60,402 nt of DNA from an uncultured Bacteroidales bacterium (GTDB taxonomy: Bacteria; Bacteroidota; Bacteroidia; Bacteroidales; Bacteroidaceae), in NCBI GenBank assembly GCA_902760315.1, contig CACWFV010000027.1, forward strand, positions 1-60,402, written 5' to 3'. Both the position numbers and the translations under genes were made by a program. Below, piece by piece: positions 44,813 through 55,113 of this stretch (position 1 is the first letter of the stretch; every line of letters starts with the position of its first letter). The notes under the pieces are model-generated. The model ran no database searches and was not told the DNA's origin. It saw only the letters and a program-made list of their open reading frames with translations.

Positions 44813-44844
44813 TTTGGCCATTAAAGAAATAATGATTATTTTTG
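44813..44844 (+). promoter_or_regulatory. Promoter of the five-gene signalling operon
   Basis: TTTG (44813-44816), 20-bp spacer, TATTTTTG (44837-44844), about 32 bp before the first ATG. Confidence 0.75.
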
Positions 44845-44875: not shown

Positions 44876-46045
44876 ATGAATCCAGTAAAAATTCTTAGTG
44901 TCGATGACGAGATGGATCTCGAACTACTACTGACACAATATTTCAGAAGACAAATACGAAAAGGAGAATACGAATTTTTCTTTGCACACAATGGTTTAGA
45001 AGCGCTGACCTTGATGTTGAAAGAGAAAGATATCAATATTATTCTGTCAGACATAAATATGCCAGAAATGGACGGTTTGACGCTATTGACAAAGATTAAC
45101 GAGATGCAGAACCCTGCACTTAAATGCATTATGGTGTCTGCATACGGAGATATGGGCAACATACGCTCGGCCATGAATAACGGTGCCTTTGACTTTGCCA
45201 CAAAGCCCATTGACTTGGATGATTTGTCAATTACCATTTCGAAAGCCATAGAGCAGATAGACTATATACGCCAATCGCAAAAGGAACATGCACAACTTGA
45301 ATCGCTTAAAACAGATCTTGCTGTAGCTGCTGAAATTCAGCAGGCTATTCTACCCCGTATTTTTCCTCCATTCCCAGAGAATAATGATTTGCTGGACTTG
45401 GCTGCCAAGATGATTCCTGCAAAAGACGTTGGTGGTGACTTCTACGACTTTTTCCGTATCGACAAAGACCGCATTGGTTTAGTGATGGCTGATGTGAGTG
45501 GTAAAGGTATTCCCGCAGCAATTTTCATGGCAGTCAGCCGTACGCTGATACGAACCATTGGACTGCAGGGCTTGACACCTGGAGAGTGTCTAACCAAGTC
45601 AAACGAACTGCTCTGTAAAGAGTCTGTTGACTGTATGTTTGTTACGGTCTTCTTTGCCATCTATAACATTAAAACTGGCGAAATGGAATATAGTAATGGC
45701 GGCCACAATTCGCCCGTTATTATCAAAGCCGACGGTAGTGTAGAAATGTTACCGGTCAGTACCAGTTGCATGCTGGGAGCCGTGGATGGTATCACCTACC
45801 CTAACGAGAAATTGACGTTAAACGCAGGTGACACGATAGTGATGTATACTGATGGCGTAAATGAAGCCATGAATAGCGACTTCCAAGAATACGGTGACGA
45901 ACGCATGATGAAAACGTTGAGTCAGCAGTTAGGTAAAACATGTCAAGAGGTTATCGACGGCCAGCTGGCCTCGCTAAAAGATTTCGTTGGTAATGCTGAG
46001 CAAAGTGATGATATCACTATCTTGACATTGAAGCGTAAAGCATGA
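44876..46045 (+). CDS. Response regulator with SpoIIE/RsbU-type PPM phosphatase output
   Basis: 389 aa. Receiver domain 1 to about 125: acidic pocket D10-D11, phospho-acceptor D59 (ILSDINMPEMDG), Ser in MVSAYGD and Lys in FATKPID. A short coiled linker (QSQKEHAQLESLKTDLAVAAEIQQAILP) leads to a SpoIIE-like phosphatase domain with metal-binding motifs DVGGDFYDFF, MADVSGKGIPAAIFMA, YTDGVNEA and QSDDITILTL. The predicted output is dephosphorylation of a Ser/Thr-phosphoprotein, classically a STAS anti-anti-sigma factor; none is encoded here. First gene of the operon; overlaps the next by 4 bp. Confidence 0.93.
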   Translation: MNPVKILSVDDEMDLELLLTQYFRRQIRKGEYEFFFAHNGLEALTLMLKEKDINIILSDINMPEMDGLTLLTKINEMQNPALKCIMVSAYGDMGNIRSAMNNGAFDFATKPIDLDDLSITISKAIEQIDYIRQSQKEHAQLESLKTDLAVAAEIQQAILPRIFPPFPENNDLLDLAAKMIPAKDVGGDFYDFFRIDKDRIGLVMADVSGKGIPAAIFMAVSRTLIRTIGLQGLTPGECLTKSNELLCKESVDCMFVTVFFAIYNIKTGEMEYSNGGHNSPVIIKADGSVEMLPVSTSCMLGAVDGITYPNEKLTLNAGDTIVMYTDGVNEAMNSDFQEYGDERMMKTLSQQLGKTCQEVIDGQLASLKDFVGNAEQSDDITILTLKRKA

Positions 46046-47613
46046 AAATTATTAGCCGTATAGGTACCTACGTAGTGGTAAGTGGCATAGTAGCCATAGC
46101 TATTTATTTTGGTTGGCATACACATCAGAAGTATTCCGCCGAGCAGTTACGTGTGGAAGAATTGGAGCAGCAAGTGAAAAAGCTGACTCTGGACAAGCAA
46201 CGCTCGACCATCATGCAGAGTGTGAACCAGCAAATGGAAGAAATAGCCAACCAGGAGCGACTCATCAGTGAAGAGCAACGAGAAGAAGCACTTCAACAGA
46301 GCCGGATAGCCAATGAGATGCGTCTGCATGCTGAAGAGGAACAGCAGAAAGCACTCCAGGCCGAACGCAAAGCCTTGGAAGCCTCGAAGACAGCACAGGG
46401 TCAGCGTTTGATAGCTGAGAAAGAACGGAGTCAGGCAGAGTATTCTAAACGAGTGGCCGATACGCTGACCTATCGTACCATTGCTCGCAACTTGGGTAAT
46501 ACTGCCACTACGCTACAGAAAGCCGGCAACCAGGAACTTGCCTCGTTACTGGCTTATACCGCCTATTTATTTACCCAACGTTATCATGGCGATGTATATC
46601 ACCCATCCATTTACGAAGCGCTTATGTTGACTAGTGGTAGCCAACATCGTTGGACAGTAGCCCATGGCGGAATTATGAAGTTGTTACAGGTGCCAGGTTC
46701 AGGAAACTCCATAAGCGTGAGTACTTACGGTGAACTCCTTCAGCATAGCGAGAAAGGCGAAAACCTACAGACACGTATTCTTTTTAGTGATAAATCATTT
46801 GACTTTCGCGATGTCTATGGAGCTCGCAATCAGACCTACTATGCCGTCAGCCATACTGGCCACCTTCTTGTCTATAGGGAGGGAAGCCGAGCTCATGTCG
46901 TAGCAATCGAGGGAGCCACCCACCCTTTCCGTATCTTCTCAAACGATGACAAACAACTCATCGTTACAGCTGAACAGAGTATTCTTGTTATTGATGCCTT
47001 GACGCTTCATACCATCCGCACACTACCTCTCAATTTCCATGCAGTAATTGCTGGATGGAAACAAGGAGACATTGTTCTCTTCAGTGATAAAGGCGAAATG
47101 TATATGCTGGACAAAGAAATCACCAAGGTAACCAGACTGCAGCGACCTTTCAAGGGGCGCGTTATGTCGTACAGTTACGACCCCAATACTCGTCAAGAGG
47201 CCTTTGGTATGTACGACGGTACCATTTATCTGCAGTCGGCAAATGGTAAGCAGACTAAACTTGTTGGACATAACTCTCGTGTAACACGAATTATATACAA
47301 AAATCGACGGCTCTATTCATCCAGTTTTGATGGAACAGTAAAACTCTGGAACATAGAGAACGATAAGATAGATCCCATTGATATTGCAAATTCGCGTCAA
47401 TGGATCATCAGCATGACCTTCAATACCTCTCAGAGTCACATTTGGACAGGCGACCAATATGGAAACTTGACAAAGACAATGATAGACATCACACAGATGG
47501 CACAAGAAGTGAAGGCAGGCATTAACCGCAACCTGACACACAACGAGTGGGACTACTATGTCGGCCATGACATTCCTTACGAACAATTCATTAGAAAGGA
47601 GGTACACCCATGA
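46042..47613 (+). CDS. Membrane-anchored coiled-coil and WD40-like repeat protein
   Basis: 523 aa. One N-terminal transmembrane helix (about 8-24) follows Lys/Arg, so most of the protein should face the periplasm. Residues about 30-145 form a long Glu/Gln/Arg coiled coil (EEQREEALQQSRIANEMRL). A helical linker (ARNLGNTATTLQKAGNQELASLLAYTAYL) resembles the one before WD40 propellers in STAND-type proteins. Residues about 200-500 form WD40-like blades, the clearest being GHNSRVTRIIYKNRRLYSSSFDGTVKLWNIE. No enzymatic motif. It is probably a scaffold or sensor partner in the same operon, joined by 4-bp overlaps on both sides. Confidence 0.8.
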   Translation: MKIISRIGTYVVVSGIVAIAIYFGWHTHQKYSAEQLRVEELEQQVKKLTLDKQRSTIMQSVNQQMEEIANQERLISEEQREEALQQSRIANEMRLHAEEEQQKALQAERKALEASKTAQGQRLIAEKERSQAEYSKRVADTLTYRTIARNLGNTATTLQKAGNQELASLLAYTAYLFTQRYHGDVYHPSIYEALMLTSGSQHRWTVAHGGIMKLLQVPGSGNSISVSTYGELLQHSEKGENLQTRILFSDKSFDFRDVYGARNQTYYAVSHTGHLLVYREGSRAHVVAIEGATHPFRIFSNDDKQLIVTAEQSILVIDALTLHTIRTLPLNFHAVIAGWKQGDIVLFSDKGEMYMLDKEITKVTRLQRPFKGRVMSYSYDPNTRQEAFGMYDGTIYLQSANGKQTKLVGHNSRVTRIIYKNRRLYSSSFDGTVKLWNIENDKIDPIDIANSRQWIISMTFNTSQSHIWTGDQYGNLTKTMIDITQMAQEVKAGINRNLTHNEWDYYVGHDIPYEQFIRKEVHP

Positions 47614-50462
47614 AAAAACTACTGCTGGCAGCATTGTTTTTCCTGCTCCCACTTTCATGGGCACGGGCACAGGGAATTCCTTTTTTCCAGAACATTGATG
47701 CTGAAGCCTATTGTGGTCATAAGCAAAACTTCGATATTGAAATTGACCAGAACGGCATAGTCTACGTAGCCAATTTTGAGGGATTACTCTACTATGACAA
47801 TGCTCAATGGCGCATGGTCTACACTCCTCATATTACCCGTGTGACAGTACTGAAACATGATGCAAAAGGTAAGTTGTGGGTGGGAGGCTATAACTTCTTT
47901 GGCTACGTCAGCTCCAACGACCGTGGATTGTTGGAATTGAAAGAACACGACAGTAAGCATGCTTTCAAGGGGGAGGTTCAGCGCATCTGGGAGCATGATG
48001 GCGACGTTTTTTTCCGGGTAAGTAACGGTCAGACATACATCGTCGGCCAGAATCAGATAAAGTCAGTTCCGCTATCTGAAAGTGCCCCAGCTCCTCCCGA
48101 CATTCCAGCAACTGAAGGAAAGATGTCCGACATCACGGAGAAAATAGAGCTCGGTAATGCTTGGACAGCAGTTGCCACGAGTAATAACGGCATTTACATC
48201 GTAGACAAAAACGGCAACGAGATTTACCACTTGAACGAAGACAGCGGTCTCTGCTCAGAAAACGTGACGAGTCTGGCCTATAATGGTAACGGACTTTTAT
48301 GGGGAGCTACTGACAATGGACTATTCATTGTACAGGTACCATCTCCTTTTACCTGCTATCACCAGCAGGACGGACTAAAAGGCGAGGTGCTTTCATTGGC
48401 CAAGATGGGTGATGTGGTATACGCAGGTACCCAGTCAGGATTATTCCGCCAACAAGGACAGCACTTTGAGCAGATAGGCAATATGGATTATGCCGTATGG
48501 CAATTAGTCGGCCATAATGATCACCTTTTGGCCGCAACTTCCAACGGTGTGTTCCTTGTTTATGCCAACGGTAGCGTCACCCATCTGACTACAGGTAATA
48601 CTACCGCCATATTGGAGGATGAAAAAGGTTTTTATGCTGGCGAGCTGGATGGCGTCTACTACTATGGTACGGGGCAATCCTCACGTAAGGTTAGTAATGC
48701 AGAGCGTGTAACAAAATTTCTCCGAGACAAGGCTGGAGTCATCTGGTTTCAGAACCTCTACGGACTAATATGGAACAACAAGGACGGGCAGTTTGAACCA
48801 CTTGCCAGTTCCAGTACCGATGAAATGTCCACCATCGTCATGTATATGAATAAGGTGGTACCCATCTCCGTTAACTCAAAAGGCCCTATCCCCTACCCGC
48901 TTTTCTCTTATACCGATCCCTATGGTATGCTTTGGTTGACGGATGAAAAGGGGAAACAAACTTATGTTCTTGTTAACGGCGTAAGGAAAAATAAATGGAG
49001 CGAGTTAACCTATTCGCTCATGGACCACAACGTCCACGCTATATTAAATGACAGAAAAAGCGTCTGGTTAGGAGGTTCCAATGGATTGACCGTAGTAAAC
49101 ACCACGATGTCCGACCCAACCAAGAAGGCTACGCAGCAGTTACATATACGCTCATTTACCGTCAATGGAGACCACATTATCTGGGGTGGCCACACGAAAC
49201 AGGCTGACCTATTGACGTTAGAACCTGAACAGCATGAAATACTTATCCACTACTCCGTAGACTACCCCTCGCTGCTGCTGCGTACACAATATCGATATCG
49301 GATCAATGGTGGAAGGTGGAGCACCTGGGACTTTGACACCTACACAGAGTTTAACAACCAGCCCTACGGTAACTACACATTTGAAGTACAGGCTCGCGAT
49401 GCCTTCGGACGTATCACAAACACTGTAGCTATCAAGTATGAAATATTAACGCCATTCTACAGGCGTTGGTATATGCTGCTGGCTTATCTTTTGTTGCTGC
49501 TAGTGATGGGGTATGTTGTCTTCAAGTGGCGCCTCAGAAAACTTGAAAAAGCCAAGTTGCAACTGGAAGCCATTGTGCAGGAACGCACAGCAGAGGTGGT
49601 TCAGCAGAAGAATGAGATTGAGGAAAAATCAAAAAATCTGGAGTCAGCACTCCACGAACTTAGCGAAACACAAAATGAACTGGTGCGTCAGGAGAAAATG
49701 GCCACTGTTGGTAAACTGACACAAGGGCTTATAGACCGCATATTGAATCCACTGAACTACATCAACAACTTCTCCAAACTGTCAGAAGGGCTCGTGGACG
49801 ATGCAAGGCAAAACATTGAGGACGAGGAGGAACACATGGACTCCGAGAACTATGAAGACACCATTGACGTCCTTAGCATGCTAAAGGGCAATCTGCAAAA
49901 GGTAAGTCAGCATGGAGCCAGTACAACGCGCATTCTGAAGGCCATGGAAGAGATGCTAAAAGACCGTTCTGGAGGCATCGTGAAGACAGACTTGACGGGC
50001 ATTATCAAACAAAACGAACAGATGTTTGGCACCTATTATGCACAAGATATTCGTGAGTGCCATATAAAGACTGCATTCACCTACCCTGCTATACCTGTCT
50101 ATGTCAAAGCAAACCCGGAATTGCTGAGCAAGTCGTTTATGAGTCTGCTGGGCAATTCCGTCTATGCCATTGTTAAAAAAACTAAGCAGACTCAGGGTGA
50201 AGCAGAACTGACTCTCAACATTACGGTTGATGACGAAAAAGCAACAATCATTATCCGTGATACCGGAATAGGTATTGAAGAAACCATTATCAACAAAATC
50301 TTCGACCCATTCTTCACTACTAAAACGACAGGTGAAGCATCAGGAACCGGCCTCTATCTCAGTCGTGAAATCATACAGAACTATGGTGGCGACATTACGG
50401 TACGGTCTGAGAAAAACAAATTTACAGAATTTACCATCATATTACCTATTATTAAAGAATGA
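47610..50462 (+). CDS. Propeller sensor histidine-kinase homologue lacking the phospho-acceptor His
   Basis: 950 aa. A signal peptide (ends WARAQ) is followed by a periplasmic region to about 530 with two-component propeller (reg_prop) repeats (GIVYVANFEGLLYYDN, GLLWGATDNGLFIV), a Y_Y_Y domain (about 535-608), a transmembrane helix (about 620-641), a coiled coil and a HisKA-like segment GKLTQGLIDRILNPLNYINN. In the H-box the usual His-Glu is D709-R710. The ATPase domain keeps an N in LLGNSVYAI, G1 DTGIGI, F-box FDPFFTT and G2 GTGLYLS. It should bind ATP but cannot be phosphorylated on its own H-box. It overlaps both neighbours by 4 bp. Confidence 0.9.
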   Translation: MKKLLLAALFFLLPLSWARAQGIPFFQNIDAEAYCGHKQNFDIEIDQNGIVYVANFEGLLYYDNAQWRMVYTPHITRVTVLKHDAKGKLWVGGYNFFGYVSSNDRGLLELKEHDSKHAFKGEVQRIWEHDGDVFFRVSNGQTYIVGQNQIKSVPLSESAPAPPDIPATEGKMSDITEKIELGNAWTAVATSNNGIYIVDKNGNEIYHLNEDSGLCSENVTSLAYNGNGLLWGATDNGLFIVQVPSPFTCYHQQDGLKGEVLSLAKMGDVVYAGTQSGLFRQQGQHFEQIGNMDYAVWQLVGHNDHLLAATSNGVFLVYANGSVTHLTTGNTTAILEDEKGFYAGELDGVYYYGTGQSSRKVSNAERVTKFLRDKAGVIWFQNLYGLIWNNKDGQFEPLASSSTDEMSTIVMYMNKVVPISVNSKGPIPYPLFSYTDPYGMLWLTDEKGKQTYVLVNGVRKNKWSELTYSLMDHNVHAILNDRKSVWLGGSNGLTVVNTTMSDPTKKATQQLHIRSFTVNGDHIIWGGHTKQADLLTLEPEQHEILIHYSVDYPSLLLRTQYRYRINGGRWSTWDFDTYTEFNNQPYGNYTFEVQARDAFGRITNTVAIKYEILTPFYRRWYMLLAYLLLLLVMGYVVFKWRLRKLEKAKLQLEAIVQERTAEVVQQKNEIEEKSKNLESALHELSETQNELVRQEKMATVGKLTQGLIDRILNPLNYINNFSKLSEGLVDDARQNIEDEEEHMDSENYEDTIDVLSMLKGNLQKVSQHGASTTRILKAMEEMLKDRSGGIVKTDLTGIIKQNEQMFGTYYAQDIRECHIKTAFTYPAIPVYVKANPELLSKSFMSLLGNSVYAIVKKTKQTQGEAELTLNITVDDEKATIIIRDTGIGIEETIINKIFDPFFTTKTTGEASGTGLYLSREIIQNYGGDITVRSEKNKFTEFTIILPIIKE

Positions 50463-51292
50463 TGACTATGGATATACAGGTGGAAAAACTTCAGCAACAG
50501 CTTAAAGAACAAGAGAAACTTGCCTCCTTGGGCATGCTCAGCGCTGGTATCGCCCATGAGATACAGAATCCGCTGAACTTTGTCATCAACTTCAGCAAGA
50601 TGTCCGACAAACTACTGAAAGATCTGACAGAAATAGTGGAAGACCACAAAGCTGACCTGCCTGAAGACGACCGTGAAGAAGTAGAAGATATTATTGACGA
50701 TCTGAAGGGTAATCTAAGCAAAATCGTGGAGCACGGTGAGCGTGCCATTAGCATCATTCAGGGCATCCTTCTCGTATCTCGTGGCAAAGAGAATGAATTT
50801 CTTCCAGCTGATGTTGCACGTATTGTCAAGGAATACGTATGGCTTTCATACCATGCCATGCGTGCTAATCACAAGAACTTCAATATCAGCATCCACGAGG
50901 ACTATCAAGAATCGTTGCCCAAGGTAATGGTAATTCCGCAAGACTTGAGCCGGGCTATACTCAACCTGATGAATAATGCCTGCTATACCGTCTGGTACAA
51001 GTCACAAGAGACGGGCTCCGACTATCAGCCTGCCATCAGCGTTAAAGTAAGTGCTGACGCCGACAACATCACCATCACCATTGAAGACAATGGCCAAGGC
51101 ATGAGTGAAGAAGTGAAAAAGCGTCTCTATGAGAATTTCTTCACCACCAAACCAGTTGGTCAGGGCACCGGTCTTGGAATGGCTATCACCAAAGATATCG
51201 TGGAAAATAAGCACCATGGTCAGTTGTCGTTTGACTCGCAAGAGGGTCAAGGTACCACATTCTATATCACCATACCCTTGAAGAAAGCATGA
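50459..51292 (+). CDS. Soluble sensor histidine kinase with intact H-box
   Basis: 277 aa, no membrane helix or input domain. After a 20-residue coiled coil comes SLGMLSAGIAHEIQNPLNFV with phospho-acceptor H33, an acidic helical stretch, then a HATPase domain (N-box AILNLMNNACYTVW, G1 DNGQGM, F-box NFFTTKP, G2 GTGLGMAI). Its dimerisation region is similar to that of the preceding protein (NPLNFVINFSKMSD versus NPLNYINNFSKLSE). A heterodimer, in which the membrane partner senses and this one carries the phosphoryl group to the REC-phosphatase, is the simplest model. Confidence 0.92.
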   Translation: MMTMDIQVEKLQQQLKEQEKLASLGMLSAGIAHEIQNPLNFVINFSKMSDKLLKDLTEIVEDHKADLPEDDREEVEDIIDDLKGNLSKIVEHGERAISIIQGILLVSRGKENEFLPADVARIVKEYVWLSYHAMRANHKNFNISIHEDYQESLPKVMVIPQDLSRAILNLMNNACYTVWYKSQETGSDYQPAISVKVSADADNITITIEDNGQGMSEEVKKRLYENFFTTKPVGQGTGLGMAITKDIVENKHHGQLSFDSQEGQGTTFYITIPLKKA

Positions 51293-53781
51293 GAAGATTC
51301 ATATACTCCTTATTATTATTTGCAATTTACACAGGTGCCGTAGCCCAGGAAAACTACGAGCAATATCGCAGCATCTACAACATGGCCGAAGAAAACTACA
51401 ACATCGGCAAGCTGGACGATGCGGAACGCATATTGACCGACCACCTGAAGAAATTTCCTGACAACATGTTGCAAAGTGCCTACCGGCTCTTAGCGTTGTG
51501 CAGCCTTGGTAACGACAATTTGGAACAAGCCGAGCAACGCACCTTCCTACTTTTACAGCAAAACCCCTACTATACCGCCAGCACCACTGACCCTCAGCGT
51601 TTCATCGACATGGTAGAACGCATCAAGAGCGGTTTGTCTGCCACCATCACCACAGCGTCAAGCCAGGCCGAGACCCTCAGCGAAGTACCTGTTCCCACGA
51701 CGCTCATTACTCAGGAAATGATTCGCGACTGTGGGGGCTCTAACTTGCAGCAGGTATTGGCCGCCTATGTTCCCGGCATGCATATCATCGACTGCAACGA
51801 CGATATTAACATTGGCATGCGCGGCATCTATAGCAACAGTCAGGAGAAAATCCTCATCATGGTCAACGGCCACCGTCTGAACAGCTATGCCACCAATATT
51901 GCGGCCCCAGACTACAGCATCAGCCTGGAGAAGATCAAGCAGATTGAGGTACTCCGAGGTCCAGCCTCGTCACTTTATGGCGGTGTGTCGCTGACAGCTG
52001 TTGTCAATATCATCACCTGGCAAGGAGCCGACATCGATGGCATCAAAGTGAAGGCCGGCGTTGGTAACTACGGCCAGTTGCGCGGCGATGCTCTTGTCGG
52101 TAAGCGCTATTTCGATGTAGACCTTTTGCTTTGGGCCAGCATTTACCGGGCTACGGGCGAAGCACGCTTTGTTGACCGTGAAGACACCGGACTTGGCTAC
52201 GACAGCGGCGACGTGACCATCGGCAGCATTGGCAAGAAACCATCGTTTGACGTCGGACTCTCTTTGAAATACAAACAGCTGCAGTTCTTCTACAATAGTG
52301 CCTTCTCCCAGATACAGGCACCCATGACCATGCTCTACCTCTACTCACCCTATAACATAGAGAAATTCAGGACTTTAAACGGCATAGGCCCCAGTTTTGC
52401 TACACAGTCTCACCATGCTAATCTCAGCTTTCAGCATATGCTTGGCAACGTGTGGCTAAAGGGCAGCATCACCTACGACAATAGCGAGCTGACCCACTAT
52501 CAAGTGCTTACCGAGGAACCCACCACCGCCATTCTTCAAGTGCTGCCTATTCCCGATCAACTGAAGTATGCCCTTACCGACCAGCCAGGCTTATTCCGCT
52601 ACATCAATGGTCAGGAACACACTATTGGAGCCAAGATTCAGGGAGACTGGAGCTACATGAATATCAAGAATCATAAAGGTCTGCTAACCTTTGGCGCCGA
52701 ATACAGTTATTTCAATCTGAACGACGTTCGCTATACCTTTGGCTACAACTATGACAATATTGTTCCAGAAAATAGCACCATTCCCGATATTGGCAAGGGT
52801 CACGAGAGCAATCTCAATGCTTTTATCCAGCTGAAGCATCAATGGAGAGACTTCATCTTGAATGCCGGCACCCGCTTTGATTTCAAGAACCGATACGATG
52901 GCTCCCACATTCGTGAGTTCTCGCCCCGTGTGGCACTCATTTACAACCGTCCTAAGTGGAATGTCAAGTTGAGTTATTCCAAGTCTTTTATCGATGCCCC
53001 CTATCTTTATCGCAAGACCAACGAGGTGCTGCTATCCTATCTTGACATTCGCAATGTGCCCTCCACCATTGACCCGGAGTCGCTCTACTCTTGGCAACTC
53101 AGTTTCAGCTCATCAGAATGGATCAAGGGACTGAATTTCGAGGTTAACGGTTTTTATAATCATGCTAAAGACCTTATTTTCCTGTTCTTGGCCGACCACA
53201 GCAATGCCGGTATGATGGACAGCTATGGCATTGAGTTCAGCGGCAGTTACAGGACATCCCGTTTTTCGGCTCATGTCAATGCCACATGGCAAGGCTGCAA
53301 GAAGCTAGAGGTGATGTCCTATCAGATTGACAAACTCATCAATACGCCACAACTGATGCTCAACACCATCCTGTCCTGGAAAGCCACCAAGCATCTCCGG
53401 CTTCACACCCACCTGCAATACTACGGCAAGCAGCAAGTGTTCCACCTGGAACCCATTTCCTACGCCACCTATTCCGGACTGCTTGAGCATTACGCCCAGC
53501 TGCAGCTGCAAGAAATGGAATCGCCTGGTTCCATTGCTCCCGAAGAATTCAGTGAGGTAGAAACCAAACTAGAGTACTATTCCAGCAGGGCAAGTGTACA
53601 GAAAGACTATTCTGGAAGATTCCTGGTCAACGTAGGAGCCAATTACACCATCGGGAATATAGAGTTGGGCCTTGACGTGCATAACCTCTTTAACCACCAT
53701 TACACGCAGAGTGGCATGTCTACCGGTCTCATTCCCCAAAAGGGCCTCTGGCTTCTTGGAAGCATATCCTACCGATTTTAA
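51289..53781 (+). CDS. TonB-dependent receptor with N-terminal TPR-like region
   Basis: 830 aa. A signal peptide (ends GAVAQ) is followed by a helical TPR-like stretch (about 20-105: NMAEENYNIGKLDDAERILTDHLKKFPDN), a plug domain (SEVPVPTTLITQEMIRDCGGSNLQQVLAAYVPGM ... IEVLRGPASSLYGG) and a 22-strand-type barrel ending GLWLLGSISYRF with terminal Phe. There is no carboxypeptidase-regulatory N-domain and no SusD gene. The ligand is unknown. Overlapping the kinase by 4 bp, it is the last gene of the signalling operon and followed by a terminator, so it may be the surface sensor of that system. Confidence 0.9.
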   Translation: MRRFIYSLLLFAIYTGAVAQENYEQYRSIYNMAEENYNIGKLDDAERILTDHLKKFPDNMLQSAYRLLALCSLGNDNLEQAEQRTFLLLQQNPYYTASTTDPQRFIDMVERIKSGLSATITTASSQAETLSEVPVPTTLITQEMIRDCGGSNLQQVLAAYVPGMHIIDCNDDINIGMRGIYSNSQEKILIMVNGHRLNSYATNIAAPDYSISLEKIKQIEVLRGPASSLYGGVSLTAVVNIITWQGADIDGIKVKAGVGNYGQLRGDALVGKRYFDVDLLLWASIYRATGEARFVDREDTGLGYDSGDVTIGSIGKKPSFDVGLSLKYKQLQFFYNSAFSQIQAPMTMLYLYSPYNIEKFRTLNGIGPSFATQSHHANLSFQHMLGNVWLKGSITYDNSELTHYQVLTEEPTTAILQVLPIPDQLKYALTDQPGLFRYINGQEHTIGAKIQGDWSYMNIKNHKGLLTFGAEYSYFNLNDVRYTFGYNYDNIVPENSTIPDIGKGHESNLNAFIQLKHQWRDFILNAGTRFDFKNRYDGSHIREFSPRVALIYNRPKWNVKLSYSKSFIDAPYLYRKTNEVLLSYLDIRNVPSTIDPESLYSWQLSFSSSEWIKGLNFEVNGFYNHAKDLIFLFLADHSNAGMMDSYGIEFSGSYRTSRFSAHVNATWQGCKKLEVMSYQIDKLINTPQLMLNTILSWKATKHLRLHTHLQYYGKQQVFHLEPISYATYSGLLEHYAQLQLQEMESPGSIAPEEFSEVETKLEYYSSRASVQKDYSGRFLVNVGANYTIGNIELGLDVHNLFNHHYTQSGMSTGLIPQKGLWLLGSISYRF

Positions 53782-53786
53782 TATAT

Positions 53787-53820
53787 GGCAAGGAGTTCTT
53801 TTAAACTCCTTGCCCTATTT
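53787..53820 (+). terminator. Terminator of the signalling operon
   Basis: ggcaaggagtt (53787-53797) pairs perfectly with aactccttgcc (53804-53814), followed by a T-rich run, 6 bp after the receptor stop. Confidence 0.85.
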
Positions 53821-53867: not shown

Positions 53868-53898
53868 TTTGCAATTTCAATATTTCTTTGTACCTTTG
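53868..53898 (+). promoter_or_regulatory. Promoter of the AAA ATPase gene
   Basis: TTTG (53868-53871), exact 19-bp spacer, TACCTTTG (53891-53898), about 28 bp before the ATG. Confidence 0.8.
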
Positions 53899-53925: not shown

Positions 53926-55113
53926 ATGGAAGCTTTCTTCAGGACGCATAGGTACTTGGTAGAGCATGTTAATGCACCGGTTCGTCGCACCCTCATGGAC
54001 GAAATCAATTGGAGTGACCGCATGATTGGCATCAAGGGTACGCGCGGCATTGGTAAGACAACTTTTTTGTTGCAATATGCCAAAGAAAAGTTTGACGTCA
54101 ACGACCGCCAATGTCTGTATATCAACATGAACAACTTCTATTTTCAGGGGCACGGCATAGCAGACTTCGCTGGCGAATTCTGTAACCATGGCGGCCGGGT
54201 GTTGCTTATCGACCAAGTGTTCAAACAACCCGACTGGAGTCTGGAGTTAAGAAAATGTTATGACCAATACCCCTACCTAAAGATTGTTTTCACGGGCAGT
54301 AGTGTGATGCGACTGAAAGATGAGAATCCGGAACTGAACGGAATCGTCAAGTCCTATAACCTTCGCGGTTTCTCATTCCGTGAGTTCATCAATCTGCTTA
54401 CAGGCAACAGTTTCCGTCCCTACTCACTAGAGGAAATACTGAAAAACCATGAGCACATCATCAAGGAGATACTGCCCAAGGTGTCGCCCCATCGTTACTT
54501 CCAGGACTATATCCACCATGGATTCTATCCGTTCTTTCAGGAACACCGTAACTATTCGGAGAATCTCTTGAAAACCATGAACATGATGACCGAGGTAGAC
54601 ATACTGCTTATCAAGCAGATTGAACTGAAGTACCTCAACAAAATCAAAAAATTGTTCTATCAGTTGGCTGAAGAGGGACCCAAGGCTCCCAACGTCAGCA
54701 AGCTGGCCCAGGATATTGAAACCAGCCGTGCTACGGTTATGAACTATATCAAGTATCTGACTGATGCCCGCCTGCTCAACATGATCTACCCCGCCGGTGA
54801 GGATTTCCCCAAGAAACCTTCCAAGGTCATGCTTCATAACTCCAATCTGCTCTATGCCATCTACCCTATTCACGTTGACAAACAGACAGCCATGGAGACA
54901 TTCTTTGTCAATTCGCTATGGAAGGACCATAAAGTCAACCAGCAGGGGCGTGACCAGTTCTATCTTGTCGACGAGCGGTTGAAGTTTCGCGTCTGCGATG
55001 CCAACAGTAAAACCAAGATACGCTATGCTCCCGACACCATATATGCACGTTACAATACCGAAATAGGCAAAGACAATCAGATTCCACTCTGGCTGTTGGG
55101 CTTTCTGTATTAA
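53926..55113 (+). CDS. AAA_14/DUF4143-type ATPase with altered Walker B
   Basis: 395 aa. Walker A GTRGIGKTT (K44) is intact. Walker B reads VLLIDQVFKQPDW: D96 is kept, but the catalytic Glu normally next to it (IDEVHK) is Q97. Sensor-like IVFTGSSVMRL follows. A winged-helix segment (NVSKLAQDIETSRATVMNYIKYL) and the DUF4143-like C-terminal domain complete it. The family is widespread in anaerobes with no settled function. The Gln suggests slow or absent ATP hydrolysis with retained binding. It is transcribed alone. Confidence 0.88.
   Translation: MEAFFRTHRYLVEHVNAPVRRTLMDEINWSDRMIGIKGTRGIGKTTFLLQYAKEKFDVNDRQCLYINMNNFYFQGHGIADFAGEFCNHGGRVLLIDQVFKQPDWSLELRKCYDQYPYLKIVFTGSSVMRLKDENPELNGIVKSYNLRGFSFREFINLLTGNSFRPYSLEEILKNHEHIIKEILPKVSPHRYFQDYIHHGFYPFFQEHRNYSENLLKTMNMMTEVDILLIKQIELKYLNKIKKLFYQLAEEGPKAPNVSKLAQDIETSRATVMNYIKYLTDARLLNMIYPAGEDFPKKPSKVMLHNSNLLYAIYPIHVDKQTAMETFFVNSLWKDHKVNQQGRDQFYLVDERLKFRVCDANSKTKIRYAPDTIYARYNTEIGKDNQIPLWLLGFLY

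Follow-up and report, generated by a model that had tools for sequence, protein, structure and literature searches.

A conserved five-gene signalling cassette of Bacteroidales combining a TonB-type receptor, a WD40 arm and a kinase-like sensor without its phospho-accepting histidine

The DNA analysed here (the window) is a stretch of 60,402 nucleotides of contig CACWFV010000027.1 from an uncultured Bacteroidales bacterium (assembly GCA_902760315.1). Five successive genes of its forward strand encode a response regulator with a SpoIIE phosphatase domain (REC-SpoIIE), a coiled-coil WD40 protein, a membrane protein joining a propeller to a kinase-like domain (PropHK), a soluble histidine kinase (solHK) and a TonB-dependent-type receptor. 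They make up a real, conserved signalling cassette, and the five-gene order is conserved beyond chance. We consider it probable that the cassette serves two-module trans-envelope signalling, with triads of receptor, WD40 protein and pseudokinase feeding one solHK and REC-SpoIIE that would act on STAS switches; in this scheme we infer which proteins touch, which way the signal runs and what the cassette acts on.

Conserved order and distribution of the cassette

Relatives of solHK were gathered as the best 80 loci from named genome contigs, plus further genomes; loci and genomes bear L and G numbers. The 35 non-redundant loci carrying all five genes on one contig comprise 28 of the 37 loci L104-L140, eight of L064-L083 and the window, minus the duplicates L123 (same as L071) and L124 (same as L066). 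The rest of L104-L140 are L105, L120, L136 and L139, which are cut by the contig, L112, with its receptor 8.4 kb away, and L129, L132, L135 and L138, which hold the core without envelope genes. Order and strand are the same in 35/35 loci, and all frames are open. Most of these loci come from Prevotella/Prevotellaceae, and L077 comes from another family. Since all 35 loci are collinear, an order unique to this genome was rejected; nor do the genes lie mostly apart in relatives where the set occurs. The gene-neighbourhood comparison therefore upholds the claim, made in the initial annotation, that a gene set reaching from envelope to cytoplasm, and lacking a DNA-binding protein, is conserved. 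The same annotation had inferred a complete transduction unit. This part probably does not stand: STAS and HATPase_c_2 genes adjoin the set on the same strand in several relatives, which would leave the five genes incomplete.

Mean pairwise identity was high in REC-SpoIIE (0.67), solHK (0.66), the C-terminal part of PropHK (0.60) and the receptor plug (0.68), as compared to the variable WD40 domain (0.38), propeller (0.38), TPR stretch (0.42) and barrel (0.34).

Among 150 searched genomes of the window's genus, 52 had a PropHK-type domain (the Asp described below being read in the fetched loci only) and 51 had solHK, all 51 within the 52; solHK was missing from 99. Each survey was positive in 17 of the 69 better genomes. 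The two genes stand side by side on one contig in 50 of the 51 solHK-bearing genomes, as judged by eye, and on two contigs in G315. Because both share an operon, their co-occurrence (51/52 genomes) is trivial and was not counted as evidence.

All five genes also occur, in a different order, in G571, which belongs to another class of the phylum. There, eight genes on one strand encode a WD40 protein, a TPR-type receptor, a GNAT-like protein, PropHK (with Asp), solHK (with His), REC-SpoIIE, HATPase_c_2 and STAS; the domains were confirmed by Pfam, save the receptor TPR, which is a model match only. PropHK (with Asp), solHK and REC-SpoIIE are consecutive in G633, of the same class (L290). This genome also encodes Asp-type kinase-like proteins without a propeller match apart from solHK (L288, L289), one of which adjoins three His-type kinases. 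In five Tannerellaceae-type loci, an Asp-type kinase-like protein without a propeller match, solHK and REC-SpoIIE follow one another, with no envelope genes adjoining.

PropHK and its soluble partner

Pfam (E<=0.001 for the five window proteins) matched Reg_prop and HATPase_c in the window PropHK, with Y_Y_Y below the cut-off and no HisKA match. Hydropathy placed a transmembrane segment ahead of the kinase-like part in 33 of 35 PropHK proteins. In the DHp domain, the His-Glu pair is replaced by Asp-Arg in 43/43 aligned PropHK-type sequences, window included, and the flanking residues are fixed; His-Glu is retained in 39/39 aligned solHK. The 43 rows are the window protein, those scoring >300 bits with the Asp-type model, plus L076, L077, L081, L082 and L083 added by hand; His-type rows score at most about 230 bits with this model. 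Without the phospho-accepting His and the acidic residue, PropHK is therefore not a second kinase, and "propeller kinase" was rejected as its name. Kept in the same 43/43 rows are the N-box Asn, the G1 Asp and glycines, a Thr-Thr-Lys motif, two G2 glycines and the Asn at H+4.

In HisKA proteins, kinase activity depends on the acidic residue and phosphatase activity does not; the reverse holds for the Asn/Thr residue, which only the phosphatase activity requires, and a His-to-Ala mutant retains phosphatase activity (PMC3510030). Judged by these residue roles, PropHK looks kinase-dead and phosphatase-competent, since the His and the acidic residue are lost and the Asn is kept. The role that we favour from these residues, with evenly balanced confidence, is that of a receptor-gated phosphatase of phosphorylated REC which would oppose solHK. 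PropHK may also heterodimerise with solHK and gate it; this possibility, compatible with the phosphatase role, appears from the sequences to fall somewhat short of an even chance.

An unrooted tree was computed from 59 rows and drawn midpoint-rooted. One of its branches (100/100) sets off the 16 Asp-type domains and another (100/96) the 14 solHK; the His-type rows had been collected with His-type patterns. A search for the Asp-type domain in 395 genomes of the phylum gave matches in 83 genomes. The 30 loci read from this search comprise 4 Asp-type (window, L257, L258, L259) and 26 His-type loci.

The partner protein, solHK, has HisKA with its His and HATPase_c; Pfam matched no sensor domain in it, and hydropathy found no transmembrane segment in 35/35 proteins. 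It is single-copy in 50 of 51 genomes, two matches being found in G375. Additional PropHK copies that lack an accompanying solHK were found in 11 genomes. Ten of these genomes hold solHK elsewhere, so that such copies occur in 10/51 solHK-bearing genomes versus 1/99 without (p = 9e-5, kinship ignored; the exception is G424). REC-SpoIIE accompanies the extra copy in L206, L082 (where the receptor is split over two open reading frames), L242, L246, L248 and L249; L250, L252 and L253 consist of WD40, PropHK and receptor genes alone; L243/L244 are contig-cut; and PropHK of L083 has no adjoining WD40 or receptor gene. Overall, WD40, PropHK and receptor stay together in 9/10 uncut extra copies. The confinement of most extra copies to solHK-bearing genomes, together with the single copy of solHK, suggests that one soluble kinase is common to several sensors.

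Eleven exploratory comparisons addressed covariation between the cytoplasmic parts. The DHp of PropHK covaried with REC at 0.52 given solHK, and with the DHp of solHK at 0.40 given REC-SpoIIE, the controls being different. Covariation of the C-terminal part of PropHK with solHK reached 0.60.

The envelope arm and the partner-switch output

Over the 35 loci, WD40 and propeller distances correlate at 0.61 given REC-SpoIIE and solHK distances, and the value holds at 0.56 in a main group of 24 loci. This hand-made subset omits L077, L125-L128, L130, L131, L133, L134, L137 and L140. Along the receptor, the TPR segment covaried with WD40 (0.28) and with the propeller (0.25), as compared to -0.17 to 0.15 for 17 other receptor segments. 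In the comparison by receptor domain, the TPR stretch gave 0.27 with WD40 and 0.26 with the propeller; the plug and barrel showed no covariation with either. With the cytoplasmic half of PropHK the TPR value was 0.07, though that half is encoded closer to the receptor.

By sequence and model, the fifth protein is a TonB-dependent-type receptor with plug and beta-barrel. Pfam matched Plug in 35/35 receptor relatives, the TonB barrel in 19/35 and each TPR model in 1/35, with no TPR match in the window receptor. In the AlphaFold model (pLDDT 87.4), TPR-like paired helices at residues 42-55, 58-74, 78-91 and 103-116 precede the plug and the barrel strands. The nearest profiles were the colicin I receptor and enterobactin-type transporters. 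STN was matched neither in the window receptor nor among the 10 Pfam families matched by the 35 relatives (E<=0.01). Tandem receptors follow solHK in several loci (two in L110, L111, L114 and L115; three in L247, where the locus ends within the third), which suggests receptor turnover.

The WD40 protein was modelled (pLDDT 85.9) with a helix at 7-31, a single helix at 43-160, whose start up to about residue 70 has low confidence, and seven four-strand blades built of 28 strands. At 1.5 angstrom per residue, helix 43-160 would span up to ~18 nm and could reach well into the periplasm. Crude hydropathy gave one transmembrane segment in 33 of 35 WD40 proteins and none in 2; the N side of the segment carries more positive charge in 28/35. 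The protein resembles the C-terminal half of proteins built of nSTAND1, a transmembrane segment, a coiled coil and WD40 (nSTAND1 was tested by Pfam in L078, the others by BLAST). Hydropathy was run on 17 of 21 such relatives. In these 17, a transmembrane segment lies between NTPase and coiled coil, and its NTPase side is the more positively charged; L097 shows an additional weak prediction. Since the NTPase is expected in the cytoplasm, the segment separates it from the coiled coil and the charge bias is on the NTPase side, the WD40 domain is predicted to be periplasmic.

The 20 nSTAND1-type loci were drawn from the better matches of a search positive in 81/295 genomes, and in 20/20 the gene adjoins that of a window-like receptor (5) or of a protein homologous to the L078 outer-membrane protein (15). 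The L078 protein matches OMP_b-brl (Pfam), and its N-terminus is about 30% identical to the TPR-like stretch of the receptor. In L090 the nSTAND1-type pair adjoins solHK-like and REC-SpoIIE genes. As a separate cassette, L084-L103 carry the nSTAND1-type gene and then the gene for the outer-membrane protein or receptor; 9/20 also have a HAMP-SpoIIE homologue and 12/20 a TIR-like homologue.

On the output side, Asp10, Asp11, Asp59 and Lys110 of REC are kept in 35/35 cassettes, as are the acidic Asp188, Asp206, Asp326, Asp378 and Asp379 of SpoIIE. Beyond the 35 loci, both STAS and HATPase_c_2 stand on the same strand beside L206, L247 (571 bp away), L248 and L292, and STAS alone beside L246 and L249. 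Both lie in front of the Tannerellaceae-type core in 4 of 5 loci: L132 (Parabacteroides acidifaciens), L135, L138 and L146. A two-gene form, with a His-type sensor kinase adjoining REC-SpoIIE, recurs in other Bacteroidota and beyond, and has STAS and/or HATPase_c_2 in L074, L142, L147 and L151. Stand-alone STAS genes are commoner in the cassette-bearing genomes of the genus (10/11 versus 10/25, p 0.009, kinship ignored), as counted by hand in open reading frames up to about 140 aa with G308 scored as absent. A STAS/HATPase_c_2 partner switch is the likely next step of the chain, as judged from gene content.

STAS and HATPase_c_2 genes are found near isoamylase-like genes in L077, L208, L209 and L210 (by Pfam in L077 only, by a look at the sequence in the others), perhaps a link to glycogen use. 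In the window genome, L194 holds in a row HATPase_c_2, a fused ABC transporter, a lipoprotein-like gene, STAS and a LuxR-type regulator.

Proposed mechanism, alternatives and operon layout

In the two-module scheme, the periplasmic TPR-like domain of the outer-membrane TonB-type receptor would meet the WD40 propeller, which would be held on an inner-membrane-anchored coiled coil and adjoin the membrane protein PropHK. Receptor, WD40 arm and PropHK with its His-less kinase-like domain would constitute the sensor triad. In the hub, solHK would phosphorylate the receiver of REC-SpoIIE, and REC-SpoIIE would dephosphorylate a STAS protein, thereby flipping a STAS/HATPase_c_2 partner switch; this switch would be encoded elsewhere in the window genome and beside the cassette in some relatives. 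The cassette would work like receptor-gated two-component control, probably of partner switching. It seems doubtful to us that the whole of a more specific version applies, in which exchangeable receptors dock by their TPR on the WD40 arm and set a His-less, phosphatase-only sensor, triads share the sensorless kinase and the output is a partner switch.

A number of observations weigh against this scheme. In the 24-locus group, TPR-WD40 covariation falls to 0.18 (p 0.03) and TPR-propeller covariation to 0.08 (p 0.19), so that the TPR signal is suggestive only; the contact of receptor TPR and WD40, a pair named for checking in the initial annotation, is thus no more than suggested by covariation that loses strength in the smaller group. 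Covariation of the solHK DHp with REC drops from 0.32 to 0.10 (p 0.23) in the same group and is not robust. The PropHK-DHp/REC signal is not clean because the DHp of PropHK covaries with the SpoIIE domain as well (0.31). Propeller kinases with an intact His occur in other Bacteroidota, and therefore loss of the His is not required for a propeller sensor. Crude hydropathy found no transmembrane segment in 22 of 35 REC-SpoIIE proteins and one such stretch in 13, tentatively interpreted as a strand or helix buried in the fold. As to the switch, STAS and HATPase_c_2 both stand beside the cassette in 2/35 full loci (L067 and L077, with one gene between in L077) and STAS alone in 2/35 (L071, L130); neither was detected in the stretch examined of 31/35, the window included, nor beside the Tannerellaceae-type core of L129. 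The STAS and HATPase_c_2 genes of the window genome sit on other contigs. Finally, G424, a genome 85% complete, carries a cassette in which no solHK was detected.

The strongest alternative, plausible at a little less than an even chance, is that PropHK and solHK form an obligate heterodimeric kinase, in which the ATP domain or the conformation of PropHK would drive phosphorylation of His33 and then of REC-SpoIIE, and PropHK would be no phosphatase. This was our initial idea; it was ranked second because of the HisKA residue roles given in PMC3510030. The ATP-site residues kept in 43/43 PropHK, a solHK devoid of sensor domain (Pfam) and transmembrane segment, and the covariation of the C-terminal part of PropHK with solHK are consistent with it, as is the FasB/FasC precedent, where the kinase domain of one partner is proposed to phosphorylate the His of the other (PMC12675982). 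Retention of the H+4 phosphatase Asn in 43/43 PropHK argues against it, and so does the stronger covariation of the PropHK DHp with REC than with the solHK DHp, within the limits of the exploratory comparison with different controls. The loss of the His and its acidic neighbour could also be a sign of decay, PropHK being a former kinase and the operon an eroding relic; with Asp-Arg and flanks fixed in 43/43 sequences, frames open in the 35 full loci and a single group in the tree, this is extremely improbable.

The two other explanations concern the envelope genes. It is unlikely that the locus serves nutrient uptake, the receptor importing a substrate and the other four genes being a conventional local regulator of that uptake. 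The nearest receptor profiles and the highly conserved plug would fit, but the five genes include no SusD-like, binding-protein or hydrolase gene, the receptor N-terminus is TPR-like, the Tannerellaceae-type loci keep the signalling core without an adjoining receptor, and the operon has no DNA-binding output. Less likely again is descent of the WD40 protein and receptor from an nSTAND1-WD40/outer-membrane-protein conflict system with a continuing role in defence. nSTAND proteins of the nSTAND1-WD40 type serve defence, and the adjoining outer-membrane protein or receptor gene in 20/20 nSTAND1-type loci and the link with solHK and REC-SpoIIE in L090 speak for this descent. However, the NTPase is missing from the window set (Pfam), the operon has no effector, and the five proteins had no PADLOC match at E<=0.001, on which ground an anti-phage locus was rejected. 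The L078 nSTAND1 protein gave two PADLOC matches, one to a HEAT/ARM-type model, covering the WD40 part, and a weak one to mad3.

No title or abstract describing the five-gene set was found in the literature covered, which excludes subscription journals and preprints. The phosphatase domain of SypE and PA3346 is of the PP2C type. In Vibrio fischeri (SypE/SypA) and P. aeruginosa (PA3346/PA3347), a regulator likewise has Ser phosphatase activity on a STAS protein; as far as the available text goes, SypE and PA3346 are also kinases (PMC8256260). The window regulator itself carries no kinase domain, HATPase_c_2 is a separate gene, and the input would be an envelope-spanning triad with a His-less sensor; among described outputs, a SypE/SypA-like switch comes closest. 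For Bacteroidota, a partner switch has likewise been read from sequence as rsbU/rsbV/rsbW in a marine flavobacterium single-cell genome, with no receiver, soluble kinase, WD40 or receptor mentioned for this cluster in the available part of the paper (PMC2668756). Paired sensor kinases in which one partner lacks a catalytic function are proposed for FasB/FasC of group A Streptococcus (PMC12675982) and described for a laboratory-evolved ChrS pseudokinase of Corynebacterium glutamicum (PMC9491836); in these, the kinase domain is dispensable or broken. By comparison, PropHK has its His and acidic neighbour replaced in 43/43 sequences, and its partner solHK is soluble.

In FecA-FecR-FecI, an inner-membrane protein receives the signal of a TonB-type outer-membrane receptor that has a periplasmic domain at its N-terminus. 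The cassette shares this kind of receptor and differs in lacking STN, FecR and an adjacent sigma factor (no FecR or ECF sigma factor was found among the Pfam-scanned window neighbours) and in having a TPR-like domain, a WD40 arm and a two-component/partner-switch route. Bacteroides hybrid two-component systems join a Reg_prop propeller, Y_Y_Y, a transmembrane segment and HATPase_c with REC and an AraC-type DNA-binding domain in one chain. PropHK has the propeller, a Y_Y_Y-like part, the transmembrane segment and HATPase_c, but neither REC nor a DNA-binding domain (no match at E<=0.001) nor the phospho-accepting His. As in the window, the nSTAND1-type proteins have a transmembrane segment, coiled coil, WD40 and an adjoining outer-membrane protein gene; the window protein lacks their NTPase.

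The features of the cassette are collected in Table 1. The five open reading frames are joined by four 4-bp overlaps exactly where the initial annotation had placed them. These overlaps are conserved in part (16, 16, 2 and 22 of 35 loci at junctions 1-4); reading frames were begun at the first ATG/GTG/TTG following a stop codon, so that some intergenic gaps in this comparison are distorted. From first to last, the Pfam matches are Response_reg and SpoIIE; WD40, just below the cut-off; Reg_prop and HATPase_c; HisKA and HATPase_c; and Plug. The families first assigned stand, apart from the propeller protein as a kinase. The single promoter corresponds to a promoter-like site matching TTTG-N19..21-TAnnTTTG, the Bacteroides pattern; the next plus-strand match is only at 53868. 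The window contains 12 such sites versus 0.49 expected, and a sigma-70 scan gave 25 versus 20.9, no better than chance. A terminator had been proposed at 53787: a hairpin with 11 pairs is there, but terminator-like sites in the region are at chance level (9 versus 9.6 expected). The Pfam-scanned neighbours of the cassette are a formyltransferase (purU-like) gene and an AAA_14 ATPase gene. The latter (53926-55113) lies behind the hairpin with its own promoter-like site at 53868, and such a gene is near the cassette in 11/35 loci.

Table 1. Features of the cassette in the window
Feature	Position	Strand	Basis
Bacteroides-type promoter TTTG-N20-TATTTTTG	44813..44844	+	match to the Bacteroides pattern
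REC-SpoIIE phosphatase/response regulator, phospho-acceptor Asp59	44876..46045	+	open reading frame, Pfam
Coiled-coil arm, inner-membrane-anchored, with seven-blade WD40-type propeller, predicted periplasmic	46042..47613	+	open reading frame, Pfam, hydropathy, AlphaFold
PropHK: periplasmic propeller, Y_Y_Y-like part, transmembrane segment, kinase-like domain lacking the phospho-accepting His (Asp709-Arg710 instead; Asn713 retained)	47610..50462	+	
Codon of Asp709, replacing the phospho-accepting His of PropHK	49734..49736	+	
solHK: soluble HisKA histidine kinase, His33	50459..51292	+	open reading frame, Pfam
TonB-dependent-type receptor: N-terminal TPR-like helices, plug, barrel	51289..53781	+	Pfam, profile, AlphaFold
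TPR-like segment of the receptor, residues 22-116	51352..51636	+	AlphaFold; strongest receptor covariation with WD40 protein and propeller
Intrinsic-terminator-like stem-loop, 11 pairs	53787..53814	+	hairpin scan

The cassette occurs in some rumen and gut bacteria. If the proposed scheme is true, a surface receptor in these Gram-negatives would act on a Ser/Thr-type switch, bypassing a DNA-binding response regulator. A sensor kinase would have been split into a kinase and a phosphatase and kept so across much of a phylum, and the system would be modular, with several sensors on one kinase. The residue pattern of PropHK, with His/Glu lost and Asn kept, yields a clean prediction.

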